From the NCBI GenBank assembly GCA_947630535.1, contig CANRHZ010000019.1:1-35050 (forward strand): a DNA stretch of 35,050 nt, written 5' to 3'. Origin of the DNA: Candidatus Gastranaerophilales bacterium (GTDB lineage Bacteria; Cyanobacteriota; Vampirovibrionia; Gastranaerophilales; Gastranaerophilaceae). Shown piece after piece: positions 1-35,050 of this stretch (position 1 is the stretch's first letter; every line of letters starts with the position of its first letter). The notes under the pieces are model-generated. The model worked only from the letters and a program-made list of their open reading frames with translations, was not told where the DNA came from and did not search any database. A program made the position numbers and the translations under genes.

Positions 1-24
1 GTAAGCTCCAAACAATTTAACCAT
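1..24 (-). CDS. Prepilin leader, truncated by the left window edge
   Basis: Only the first eight codons are present, reading MVKLFGAY on the minus strand from an ATG at 24. A GGGAG ribosome-binding site lies eight bases upstream of the ATG. The same eight codons start the partial gene at 35015, where they run into a poly-C tract; the G at position 1 is the first base of what would be the same tract here. By comparison with the complete gene at 275-1278, the missing part should be a type IV pilin-like protein with a homopolymer in its leader. What follows is outside the window, so the reading phase cannot be judged. Confidence 0.6.
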
Positions 25-65
25 AAATTAAACTCCCATCTATATTTTAGTACAATTTCATTTTA
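1..65 (-). repeat. Prepilin 5' module, copy 1 (upstream segment, RBS, start codons)
   Basis: This 65-bp segment is an exact inverted copy of 34974-35038. Read on the minus strand it holds an AT-rich upstream segment, a GGGAG ribosome-binding site, an ATG at 24-22 and seven further codons ending in TAC. A third copy at 1276-1310 keeps 35 bp of it, covering the upstream segment, RBS and ATG. The strict conservation of an untranslated region in front of different prepilins suggests a cassette spread by recombination. Confidence 0.85.
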
Positions 66-243: not shown

Positions 244-267
244 ATCCCGCAAAATTTTTTGCGGGAT
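244..267 (-). terminator. Rho-independent terminator after the prepilin gene
   Basis: A perfect 11-bp stem with a two-base loop (ATCCCGCAAAA / TTTTGCGGGAT) begins seven bases after the stop codon of the prepilin gene. On the minus strand it is followed by a T run. If the 3' end of the gene is a DGR variable region, this hairpin also sits where known DGRs carry a hairpin that helps target mutagenesis; that second role is speculation. Confidence 0.85.
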
Positions 268-274
268 AGTACAA

Positions 275-1278
275 TTATCTTTTCACGCAGCTAACGTAGT
301 TCAAACCCGAGCGTGTGCTCCTGTAGCGGTACCCATTGGGCATGCACTGTAGCCATGCAAGGCCGCTCGCACCTGAAGAAATGACTGAGCCTGACCAGTA
401 GTAACCGGAACTTATACCAAGTAAAGAACGATTGACAAACATTGAACCAAGTTCATCAATGTCAGGAAGTCTTGCATCATCAGATTGTTGAGTACAAAGA
501 GAAGCAGCATCTTTACCATCAGTGCTATATGATTTTGCGGTTGATGTTGAAGCGTTACTTGGGAATGGGTTAGGCGCAACAACGACGCTATTGGTTCTAT
601 ATAGTACTGTGATAAATCCAACATCCTTTCCGACTTCATTCGGGCCTTTTAAACCGTTTAGGTCATATATCATATTAACGCAAGTTTTTGTTTGAACATA
701 CGACCAAGTATTTGTAACATTTGAACCGCAATTTGGATTATAAAAAAGTGCAACTGATTCACCGTTTATCGTTTCAAATGCTGCCGCTTTAATATCGGTT
801 GTAAGTTTGTAATCATCTTCTGAATAATCGTCAGGGTTAGGATATTGAGTAAAATAAGGGTTTAATTCTTTTAAACTTTTTGGAAAATCAAGATTAGTAC
901 CGTTTAGTGCAATAATGGATGATGGTATCCCGCATGCAGATAAATTATTTGAATTACAGATATTTTGTATTCTATAAACTTTTGATAGTCCATCAATTAT
1001 AAAGGCTTCTGCCGCACCATCTATGATTTGTTGTTCCGTTTCGTTATTTGATGAGCCATAACCTGCAACACTATCCATCTCTCCTATTGCTTGGCTCATT
1101 CTTGCATAAAGTGCTTTTCTTTGTGCGTTCCATGCTTTATCGTTAACATTAACTAATAAACTTGGCAACGTTATTGCTGCAACGATACCGATAATGGCTA
1201 GTGTTATCAATACTTCAGCTAAAGTAAAACCGCCTAATCCCTTGGGGGGGGGGGGTAACAACTTTTTAAAATAGACAT
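275..1278 (-). CDS. Type IV pilin-like prepilin with poly-C leader and lectin-like C-terminus; out of frame as sequenced
   Basis: This is a secreted pilin-like subunit with a type III prepilin signal: GLGG followed by FTLAEVLITLAIIG, with the conserved Glu at +5. The mature part is about 317 residues. The C-terminus (RLPDIDELGSMF, YYWSG, a terminal YVSCVKR) resembles DUF1566/Lcl C-terminal domains, which have a C-type lectin fold. The well-placed start is the ATG at 1278 with GGGAG eight bases upstream, but its frame meets 12 C and stops at TAG soon after. The pilin frame itself is open only from 1261, where the sole possible start is a TTG with no ribosome-binding site. With 10 or 13 C the leader would read MSILKSCY, a Pro run, then KGLGG. 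I read it as a phase-OFF gene. It is probably assembled by the type IV pilus machinery that includes the PilT at 21578-22675. Confidence 0.8.
278..406 (-). other. Candidate DGR-type variable region in the prepilin C-terminus
   Basis: The last 43 codons are clearly GC-richer than the rest of the gene and use codons rare elsewhere in the window (CGC, AGG, CTA, TAC, AGC). They encode the YYWSG to YVSCVKR segment of a DUF1566-like domain. Many codons are NNC/NNT of the sort obtained by substituting adenines in AAC/AAT, and this domain type is a known DGR target. No template repeat or reverse transcriptase is in the window, so the assignment is inferred from composition, position at the very 3' end, and domain type. 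Confidence 0.45.
1244..1255 (-). repeat. 12-C homopolymer, candidate phase-variation tract
   Basis: Twelve consecutive C on the coding strand lie between the ATG at 1278 and the prepilin cleavage site. In the ATG frame TAC takes the first C, and the remaining eleven shift the reading into AGG GAT TAG. Eleven C would run to a TGA a little further on; ten or thirteen open the gene. The tract encodes part of the leader peptide that is removed. Confidence 0.85.
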
Positions 1279-1310
1279 AAATTAAACTCCCATCTATATT
1301 TTAGTACAAT
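1276..1310 (-). repeat. Prepilin 5' module, copy 2 (upstream segment, RBS, ATG)
   Basis: These 35 bp are identical to the matching part of the copies at 1-65 and 34974-35038. They include ACTAAAATATAG, the GGGAG ribosome-binding site and the ATG. After the ATG the leader codons differ from the other copies until the TAC and the poly-C tract. Confidence 0.85.
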
Positions 1311-21577: not shown

Positions 21578-22675
21578 TTAAATTAAATTTTCAGAATTGG
21601 GGTCGCTTAGCCCGTGGTATATACCTCGCATCATTTGATGGAGCTCTGTCGGATTATCACTGTATTCCATAGCAATTTCTTTATCCACAAGACCCAGTTT
21701 AAAGAGGTTATAAATTGAAGAATTCATTGTGCAAATCTCGGAGTTTGTAGATCTTGTAAGAATTTGGTCGATATCAGAAGCCCTGTCTTTTGCTATATAG
21801 TCTGCGATAGCGGGGGTAGTCATCATAACCTCAAGGGCAGGAACAAGCCCTCCGTCTGTTTTTGGTATTAATTTTTGAGCTATTGTGCCTTTAAGCGCAA
21901 CCGATAACCTTTTTCTTATAAAGTCTTTTTGTTCGGTATCGAAAAGTCCCACAATCCTGTTTATGGTTTGAACGGCAGAATTTGTGTGCACCGTGGATAA
22001 AACGAAGTGCCCTGTTTCTGCTGCTTGAATTGCGGCTTCTACCGTTGCTTTATCCCTGATTTCGCCTATTACTATAATATCGGGGTCTTGCCTCAGAGCA
22101 TATTTAATGCCGGATGGGAAATCTTCAACATCAATCCCCAAGCCCCTTTGAGTTATAAGGCACATTTTATCGGAATATAAAAATTCTATAGGGTCCTCAA
22201 TGGTTATTATGTGTTTTTTTTGACTTTTGTTTATAGCTTCTATCATTGAAGCAATTGTTGTGGATTTACCGGAACCCGTTGCTCCCGTTATTAGAAGTAT
22301 TCCGTTATTAAATTCCGTAAACTTTTGGATTGAGGGGGGGAGCATAAGGTCTTTAAATGTAGGTATTTCGTATGGAATAAGACGCATTGTAATTTTAGGC
22401 AACCCTAAATCCTTACAGTAATTAACCCTATACCTTGAAACACCTTTTAATTCGTAAGTAAAATCCAAATCCAGACTTTCTTTTATTTTGGGAAGAATAT
22501 CTCTGGGGAGAATTGTTTGCAAGATTGTATCAAACTCATCTTCTGAAACCGGCGGTAAATCCAGCATGGCAATTTCACCCGATATTCTTAAAGAGGGACG
22601 TTTCCCCGCCATTAAATGAACGTCTGAAGCTTTAACTTTTGCTATTTTGCTTAAAAAATTGTTTATATCAAACAT
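21578..22675 (-). CDS. pilT: Type IV pilus retraction ATPase PilT
   Basis: PilT is the hexameric motor that depolymerises type IV pili and drives twitching. The 365 residues are typical. It has an N-terminal PAS-like domain, Walker A GATGSGKST (131-139), an Asp box IITIEDPIEF, Walker B DPDIIVIGEIRD (196-207) and the His box AAETGHFVLSTVHTNSA. It heads a six-gene minus-strand operon. It is the only pilus machinery gene in the window and ties the prepilins at the two edges to a retractable pilus. Confidence 0.96.
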   Translation of the reverse strand: MFDINNFLSKIAKVKASDVHLMAGKRPSLRISGEIAMLDLPPVSEDEFDTILQTILPRDILPKIKESLDLDFTYELKGVSRYRVNYCKDLGLPKITMRLIPYEIPTFKDLMLPPSIQKFTEFNNGILLITGATGSGKSTTIASMIEAINKSQKKHIITIEDPIEFLYSDKMCLITQRGLGIDVEDFPSGIKYALRQDPDIIVIGEIRDKATVEAAIQAAETGHFVLSTVHTNSAVQTINRIVGLFDTEQKDFIRKRLSVALKGTIAQKLIPKTDGGLVPALEVMMTTPAIADYIAKDRASDIDQILTRSTNSEICTMNSSIYNLFKLGLVDKEIAMEYSDNPTELHQMMRGIYHGLSDPNSENLI

Positions 22676-33742: not shown

Positions 33743-33760
33743 ATTTCACTCTTGAAGAAA

Positions 33761-33824
33761 AACGAGCCTTGTAAGCCTTGAAGCATGCACTTAACAACAT
33801 TCGCTCTCCCTTGTCACCCTGAAC
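33761..33824 (+). repeat. Second short repeat family, copy 1
   Basis: This about 64-bp segment (AACGAGCCTTGTAAGCC to TTGTCACCCTGAA) recurs at 34163-34225 with a handful of substitutions. A 12-base fragment of it is also found at 33949-33960. It ends in a left arm of the palindromic repeat. Confidence 0.7.
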
Positions 33825-34162
33825 TAACCAGAAAATAGCACACAAGGCAAAATTCCCTTCGTATAAAGCATTTTATAATCAGAGCACGTAAAGCAACACA
33901 CATTAAACTTCCTTGTCACCCTGAACTTTGCAAAGCAAACAGGTGAAAAACGAGCCTTGTGCGCCTGTATCCGTAGGCGAAGCCGAAGGTGTTTCAGGGT
34001 CTGAGGGGTTGAGAATTCTACATCCCTTCTATTTGTTTAAATGCCTGTTACTTCCATTGGTAAGATGCTGAAACGAGTTCAGCATGACATTTATTAACTT
34101 AAATACAAAAATCCTTACTTAGTATACTGTCACCCTGAACTTTGCAAAGCAAATAAGTGAGG

Positions 34163-34225
34163 AACGGGCCTTGTAAGTTTTGAAGTATGTACTTAACAAC
34201 ATTCGCTCTCCCTTGTCACCCTGAA
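34163..34225 (+). repeat. Second short repeat family, copy 2
   Basis: This matches 33761-33824, including ACTTAACAACATTCGCTCTC, and runs directly into the palindromic unit that begins at 34214. It lies after a CTGAACTTTGCAAAGC segment that is also shared with the unit near 33914. Confidence 0.7.
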
Positions 34226-34327
34226 TTTATTTCAGGGTCTGAGGGATTGAGAATTCTACATCCCTTCTATTTGTTTAAATGCCTGTTACTTCCATTGGTA
34301 AGATGCTGAAACGAGTTCAGCATGACA
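34214..34327 (+). repeat. Most complete REP/BIME unit
   Basis: This copy has the whole layout: the left hairpin TGTCACCCTGAATTTATTTC plus AGGGTCTGA, the conserved centre, and the right hairpin GATGCTGAAACGAGTTC plus AGCATGACA. It is a convenient reference for the others. Confidence 0.75.
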
Positions 34328-34499
34328 TGTTGGGAAATTGTTTCAACAAGTTCAGCATGACATTTATTATTTTAAATACAAAAATCCCTACCCTGCATAC
34401 TGTCACCCTGAATTTATTTCAGGGTCTGAGGGGTTGAGAATTCTACATCCCTTCTATTTGTTTAAATGCCTGTTGCTTCCATTGGTAAGATGCTGAAAC

Positions 34500-34613
34500 T
34501 GTCTTGGATTTCCTCCACGCTCGAACAGTTCCGCAGTTGAACCTACGGTTCAAGTCCCTTTTATGTTCTCGCTATCCAGACTTGGCTTCGCCCTAGTCCG
34601 TACGGAAATCCGC
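34500..34613. mobile_element. About 114-bp insertion inside a REP right arm
   Basis: In the unit starting at 34401 the right arm is split: GATGCTGAAAC ends at 34499 and AGTTCAGCATGACA resumes at 34614. The inserted piece has GGATTTCC (34506-34513) near one end and its complement GGAAATCC (34604-34611) near the other. It also has a perfect internal hairpin, TTGAACC / GGTTCAA (34537-34553). It looks like a tiny non-coding mobile or palindromic element. Confidence 0.45.
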
Positions 34614-34841
34614 AGTTCAGCATGACATTTATTATCTTAAATACAAAAAACTCTGCCATGTATAATGTCACCCTGAACTTGTTTCAGGGTCTTACCGGCG
34701 CAAGAATATAACATGGGATTTATGCACTACTCAGATGCTGAAACGAGTTCAGCATGACATTTATTAAAAATCCCTACTCTGTATACTGTCACCATGAACT
34801 TGTTTCAGGGTCTGATACCTTTTGTATGTTATAATAAAACA

Positions 34842-34973: not shown

Positions 34974-35038
34974 TAAAATGAAATTGTACTAAAATATAGA
35001 TGGGAGTTTAATTTATGGTTAAATTGTTTGGAGCTTAC
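34974..35038 (+). repeat. Prepilin 5' module, copy 3 (upstream segment, RBS, start codons)
   Basis: This is an exact inverted copy of positions 1-65. It holds the AT-rich upstream segment, GGGAG at 35002-35006, the ATG at 35015 and codons to TAC at 35036-35038. The identity breaks off right at its upstream edge, which marks the limit of the cassette. Confidence 0.85.
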
Positions 35039-35050
35039 CCCCCCCCCCCA
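35015..35050 (+). CDS. Prepilin leader with poly-C tract, truncated by the right window edge
   Basis: The first eight codons read MVKLFGAY and are identical to the partial gene at 1-24. They are followed by the poly-C tract and a final A, the same order as in the complete gene at 275-1278. If the sequence continues as there (AGGGATTAGGCGG), the ATG frame meets TAG and the gene is OFF with 12 C. The pilin part itself is outside the window. Confidence 0.65.
   Translation, partial: MVKLFGAYPPPP
35038..35049 (+). repeat. 12-C homopolymer in the right-edge prepilin leader
   Basis: Twelve C, the first belonging to the TAC codon, are followed by A at 35050. The length and placement equal those of the tract at 1244-1255. 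Confidence 0.8.

Follow-up and report, generated by a model that had tools for sequence, protein, structure and literature searches.

A diversity-generating retroelement and leader poly-C tracts in a dispersed prepilin family of a gut Gastranaerophilales bacterium

Introduction

Surface genes of Neisseria and Campylobacter undergo phase variation at homopolymer tracts. Neisseria also varies its pilin by recombination and gene conversion among paralogues, the pilE and pilS genes. Prepilins as a class carry a leader which is removed by prepilin peptidase.

Another route to protein variation is the diversity-generating retroelement (DGR). In its established mechanism, the RNA of a template repeat (TR) is copied with errors at adenines and the resulting cDNA replaces a variable region (VR) in a target gene (PMC12875486 and references therein). 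DGRs with multiple VRs are known, and DUF1566 is the commonest target domain (PMC6642488). Several targets, or targets in trans, are described for Treponema denticola (PMC4891356), and the DGRs of Thiohalocapsa PB-PSB1 have several or remote targets per TR (PMC10907252). Pseudomonas costantinii holds 91 TR-VR pairs with few A-to-N changes, including 21 merged VRs in one adhesin gene (PMC6642488). In Bacteroides, DGRs act on the tips of type V pili (Macadangdang et al., as cited in PMC12632263).

The locus described here is from a gut bacterium, as yet uncultured, that is non-photosynthetic and related to cyanobacteria. Like the DGR of Bordetella phage BPP-1 (avd-TR-brt), it has the same three parts in the same order (PMC12875486). 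It also resembles BPP-1 in the adenine-specific differences between TR and VR, in target genes whose 3′ end is the VR, and in a reverse transcriptase (RT) that aligns with 8ub7. The divergent tails of the VRs may correspond to the IMH/IMH* boundary of BPP-1, and candidate stem-loops lie behind many VRs, though not all. Unlike BPP-1, the element is chromosomal, its targets are prepilins instead of tail fibres, and at least 51 of them lie remote from the cassette, none having been found near it. As in Bacteroides, the pilins of a gut bacterium have a putative binding part at the C-terminus that is diversified by a DGR; unlike the Bacteroides case (PMC12632263), the targets are type IV prepilins with a GFxxxE signal, dozens of them share one TR, and the leader holds a candidate homopolymer switch. 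One TR and RT would serve several VRs, remote sites included, as in other multi-target DGRs, and the separate target genes are more numerous than in the multi-target examples compared. Like the phase-variable genes of Neisseria and Campylobacter, these prepilins have a poly-C or poly-G tract near the gene start that would set the reading frame; unlike them, the tract sits in a cleaved prepilin leader, and a whole family with DGR-targeted 3′ ends carries it.

DGRs, DUF1566 targets, remote targets, DGR-diversified pilins, and pilin phase variation or homopolymer switching are each known singly. The open literature yielded no report that joins a DGR with phase variation and pilins or homopolymers, or that describes a DGR in Gastranaerophilales; subscription papers lie mostly outside this search, and no priority is claimed.

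Results

The window is the whole stretch of DNA analysed, 35,050 nucleotides, and corresponds to contig C19 of genome G000; its GC content is 34.8%. The genome comprises 1.85 Mb in 72 contigs, a fragmented assembly that is 98.5% complete. The following features of the window bear on the analysis.

275..1278, minus strand: type IV prepilin gene with a C-terminal Lcl_C/DUF1566-type domain (ORF 275-1261 and Pfam/NCBIfam matches)
1276-1278, minus strand: its start codon, ATG, with ribosome-binding site GGGAG in front
1276..1304, minus strand: leader/upstream repeat CTAAAATATAGATGGGAGTTTAATTTATG (three exact copies in the window, 0 expected)
1244..1255, minus strand: poly-C tract of 12 C inside the prepilin leader (in-frame lengths 10 or 13)
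1213..1243, minus strand: prepilin peptidase site KGLGG^FTLAEV (sequence and N_methyl match)
294..403, minus strand: DGR variable region core (alignment to the TR at C30:20263-20398)
275..293, minus strand: 3′ end of the VR, where the common GTTCGCTGC motif stops (GTTAGCTGC in the window copy)
244..267, minus strand: hairpin ATCCCGCAAAAAATTTTGCGGGAT followed by a T-run, directly after the stop codon (fold z -5.8)
1..50, minus strand: 5′ part of a second prepilin gene (ATG 22-24), the leader repeat being present without mismatch at 22-50
34989..35050, plus strand: 5′ part of a third prepilin gene (ATG 35015-35017, C tract 35038-35049)
21578..22675, minus strand: PilT/T2SSE-type pilus ATPase gene (PF00437 at C19:21857-22330, E 4e-46), given for context only

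The complete prepilin ORF (275-1261) carries a class III (prepilin) signal with an N-methylation motif, matched above cut-off by N_methyl (PF07963, E 2.8e-5) and by TIGR02532 (24.2 bits against a cut-off of 16.3). Its product is predicted to be type IV pilin-like, a class within which major or minor pilins and pseudopilins are inseparable by sequence in this case. The mature protein begins at the Phe encoded at 1226-1228. As assembled, the distance from ATG to this Phe is 50 nt, which places the ATG out of frame with the pilin (OFF). In the second prepilin a single base of the C run precedes the contig end, up to which the sequence reads ATGGTTAAATTGTTTGGAGCTTAC; the third is cut by the other contig end just after its C run. 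Several dispersed repeat copies, of types gtcaccctgaacttgtttcagggtctgag and gatgctgaaacgagttcagcatgaca, precede the leader of the third prepilin at 33760-34830. The genome encodes a prepilin peptidase (PF01478 at C2:9873) and has five T2SSE matches, the assembly ATPases, above cut-off.

The earlier note singled out the last 43 codons of this gene (278-406) for their high GC content, their rare Arg and Leu codons and a DUF1566-like sequence. The composition is indeed unusual: GC is 54.3%, compared with 36.7% in the rest of the gene and 34.8% in the window, a value reached by just 46 of about 34,900 other 129-bp windows in the stretch. The point about codon usage stands for Arg, with CGC making up two of four Arg codons here and 1.9% of those in the 23 neighbouring genes; for Leu it is only weak (CTA in one of three codons, 4.2% in the same neighbours). 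The domain assignment agrees with profile searches, in which Lcl_C (PF07603, formerly called DUF1566) hits 15 of the 16 aligned family members, the best of them at an E of 7.5e-8; the window copy alone matches at residues 250-327 with an E of 0.005, below the curated cut-off. The Lcl_C profile suggests a putative lectin (CLec) fold for the variable domain. An AlphaFold model of the mature prepilin, built on a five-sequence alignment, is poor (pLDDT 40).

Two reverse transcriptases are encoded in G000, and the one on contig C30 (L001:1273-2487) is of the DGR type, with matches to RVT_1 (E 2e-19) and PHROG 1423 (E 3e-99) and the motif IGNLTSQ. Its best solved relative by far is 8ub7, annotated 'Reverse transcriptase', which we take to be the BPP-1 DGR enzyme (E 1e-35, against 6e-8 for group II maturases). 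Just upstream lies an Avd gene (bAvd PF22296, E 6e-16; PHROG 3206 'Avd protein of DGR', E 6e-22). A search of the genome with the window segment located a TR of 136 bp between the two genes, at C30:20263-20398 (L006:1501-1636), 29 bp before the RT start. It is rich in AAC and reads ...AAC TAC TGG ... AAA CAG AAC ATG AAC AAT GGG AAC CGC AAC AGG AAC ACA CGC TCG AAT TCG AAC TAC GTT CGC TGC..., with ten codons that start with AA, nine of these ten being AAY. The earlier note had proposed that 278-406 is a DGR variable region and that a genome-wide search for an RT and a template repeat would bear this out; both are present, on another contig, and the mismatches to the window segment fall mainly at template adenines. 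The genome holds the parts of a DGR, namely RT, Avd, an AAY-rich TR adjoining the RT, and a 3′-terminal VR with adenine-biased differences. No target gene was found beside the cassette on C30 within the stretch covered (L041).

The second reverse transcriptase (C50, L002, G000:C50:10679-11593) was set aside, as it matches type VI retron RTs and is absent from the TR/VR matches. It adjoins a small HTH-like protein.

The segment that the window prepilin shares with the TR begins near 409 and has its 3′ boundary near 287, with an alignable core at 294-403. Within this core, 13 of 34 template adenines are replaced and only 3 of 76 other positions (p 1e-5). Pooling the nine VRs closest to the TR gives changes at 126 of 306 adenines (41%), 12 of 261 C (5%), 6 of 243 G (2%) and 12 of 180 T (7%). 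More than half of the non-A differences in these nine VRs (17/30) fall at two TR positions: at 57 all nine carry A or G where the TR has C, and at 120 eight of nine differ from the TR. The same two positions set the TR apart from nearly all VRs of the genome. The TR itself has evidently changed at 57 and 120 after most VRs were written, and the A or G at position 57 would fit an earlier TR with an adenine at this site, since lost. Past the shared motif the window VR departs from the TR tail, the TR reading CTCAGGAGATAA and the VR GTGAAAAGATAA; at the aligned TR positions 139, 141, 143 and 144, the VR tails differ in 42, 39, 41 and 41 of 42 VRs, respectively. A divergent tail at 275..293 is as expected for a boundary of the IMH/IMH* type. 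The hairpin at 244..267 is a predicted intrinsic terminator which also occupies the position of a DGR stem-loop. The downstream sequences of the targets show comparable hairpins behind many VRs, though not all.

In G000, a recognisable VR forms the end of at least 51 paralogous prepilins, spread over about 40 contigs, a lower bound given the fragmented assembly. The catalogue is the union of a DNA search and a profile search of the genome, with the loci read out and one reverse-strand false VR (C21_696) removed by eye. By Fisher tests, uncorrected for common descent among the VRs, 41 of the 51 show an adenine bias at p<0.05, and 17 of them at p<0.001. Twelve VRs have no more than 8 non-A differences from the TR, and the remainder are diverged. 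As divergence in roughly two thirds of the VRs extends to non-A positions, many may be retired; such VRs may have been targets once, or may belong to older templates. Viral contigs contain no detectable prepilin relatives, which leaves phage-borne copies unsupported.

These data also bear on whether the DGR of this species is a fossil that wrote the VRs in the past and is now dead while phase variation continues. Such a state would suit the differences at positions 57 and 120 and the mere dozen or so VRs still close to the TR, yet we consider it unlikely: the reading frames of RT and Avd are intact, the window VR holds the current TR base at position 120, and adenine differences already separate the VRs of duplicates that arose very recently. 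In duplicates with backbones at least 95% identical, the VRs disagree at 47% of template-A sites, compared with 8% of the remaining sites, many of these pairwise backbone comparisons covering just 60-180 bp because contigs end nearby.

Nearly every copy with an assembled 5′ end has a C run ahead of the cleavage site KGLGG^FTLAEV, and the exact leader pattern with poly-C occurs in 25 copies in the genome. Among the 19 copies with a complete start, the tract is C12 in twelve, C11 in five, C10 in one and C13 in one, the C10 copy having a leader one base longer. Lengths thus vary among copies, and tract length is predicted to set the reading frame. Eighteen of the 19 leaders are OFF and one, the C13 copy, is ON, a share below the one third that chance predicts (p 0.007), where lengths represent the assembly consensus and are not proof of cell states. 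Because the leader is cleaved off, every in-frame tract length would give the same mature pilin. Contigs often stop inside C tracts, as both ends of the window do.

It is conceivable that the poly-C tract is no on/off switch and instead reflects an assembly artefact, or that transcriptional or ribosomal slippage yields a low level of all copies. We hold this to be a little less probable than a dead retroelement: it would account for the breaks of the assembly at tracts and for the scarcity of ON copies, but lengths of 10-13 are also found in the interior of contigs that are fully assembled, other genes of this genome have similar tracts near their starts, and in another genus a poly-G run occupies the equivalent place of the gene.

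Further poly-C or poly-G tracts of 11-13 lie outside the prepilin family on contigs C16, C5, C7, C8, C10, C14 and C17 (L188-L195). Several are apparently near gene starts, and one precedes a glycosyltransferase-like frame (C16:14091). Switching by homopolymers may be a general trait of this genome.

A search of 58 genomes, G000 included, found a matching RT (E<=1e-30) in seven. The congener G001 has its own cassette, with a TR that matches, and no fewer than 39 prepilins with VRs, and its RT locus matches a record of Candidatus Gastranaerophilales bacterium BRZ_GD__bin71. The top eight VRs of G001 are changed at 102/224 A, 17/224 C, 6/192 G and 8/200 T. No comparable homopolymer is present in the G001 leaders examined; DGR-like VRs without any tract indicate that the switch is not an obligatory part of the system. 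G017, which represents a second genus of the same family, carries 39 or more such prepilins; many of their leaders contain poly-G runs of 9 to 14, the assignment of start codons being less certain here. In the VR beside the G017 cassette, 14 of 30 template adenines are changed and 0 of 103 other bases. The earlier note had made its proposal depend on adenine-specific variation among relatives, a pattern now seen in two related species.

Some G017 leaders (L094 and others) are very long, with about 50 residues between tract and cleavage site. Inserted sequence of a similar kind recurs in them, 'ESRARDG' for example, and may be a mobile repeat that lies within the leader.

Across the set, the association between RT and prepilin expansion is good but not perfect. 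Most relatives in which the search at E<=1e-30 found no RT have few or no prepilins of the family, and four RT-bearing genomes have none or one. Within the genus of G000, three genomes with no RT match have 14 diverged family members (G004), two (G005) and one (G006); in G028, from another genus, there are nine weak matches to the prepilin family. The G004 C-termini (L076, L084, L090, L095, L100) no longer resemble the TR. The approximately 14 diverged prepilins of G004 are possibly remains after loss of a DGR.

Ordinary recombination or gene conversion among pilin paralogues, acting in place of a DGR, is a very improbable source of the variation: near-identical paralogues abound and diverged VRs differ at non-A sites too, but the concentration of changes at template adenines (41% against 2-7% in G000, 14/30 against 0/103 in G017) largely refutes this account, a complete Avd-TR-RT cassette with a matching TR is present, and conversion may still shuffle backbones.

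Discussion

The cassette, the TR, the adenine-biased VRs, their copy number, the tracts and their frames are directly observed in G000. With high confidence, we interpret 278-406 as the variable region of a DGR in which one cassette rewrites a dispersed prepilin family in trans, with the poly-C leader deciding the frame. The earlier note guessed correctly, and the system greatly exceeds the size it had guessed. A pilin both switched and hypermutated, as that note put it, finds support in the anatomy of the gene, whose leader holds a tract and whose 3′ end is a VR. Beyond that note are the location of the cassette on another contig, the at least 51 targets, and the position of the tract in a peptide cleaved by prepilin peptidase.

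In the proposed mechanism, RT and Avd would reverse-transcribe the TR RNA, placing random bases opposite template adenines, and the resulting cDNA would replace the 3′ ends, the VRs, of many scattered prepilin genes in trans. Slippage at the tract would alter its length and thereby bring the ATG into or out of frame with the pilin, and prepilin peptidase would then cut the leader from whichever copies are in frame. The product would be a pilin with a C-terminal domain that binds a varying ligand. We infer from the sequences that retrohoming continues at present, that the tracts switch, and that the pilins are assembled, displayed at the surface and bind ligands. The outcome would be a two-layer repertoire, in which the DGR generates a multitude of receptor-binding tips, of which the homopolymers expose one or a few at once, while silent copies act as a reservoir. 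When a DGR was reconstituted in Escherichia coli, transcription of the target had only a mild effect on retrohoming, so untranslated copies could still be rewritten (PMC12875486).

A broader reading, which we favour by a modest degree, is that one retroelement continually rewrites more than 50 pilin tips, mostly while these are silent, and that homopolymers in the leaders display one or a few of them per cell. By this reading, silencing was added independently, as poly-C and as poly-G, to an older expansion of DGR-targeted pilins in gut Gastranaerophilales. The three genomes with no tract, poly-C and poly-G make the evolution of this second layer directly testable.

Surveys miss such systems because targets sit on other contigs and assemblies break at tracts. 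One survey method is blind to remote targets by its own statement (PMC8144416).

Two diversity engines, targeted hypermutation and stochastic switching, appear united here in one gene family, on a scale that exceeds the DGR examples compared. The logic resembles that of a large receptor library with few members expressed per cell. In this uncultured gut lineage, a possible role of a cellular DGR would be to vary pilus-borne binding domains for encounters with host, diet or phage.
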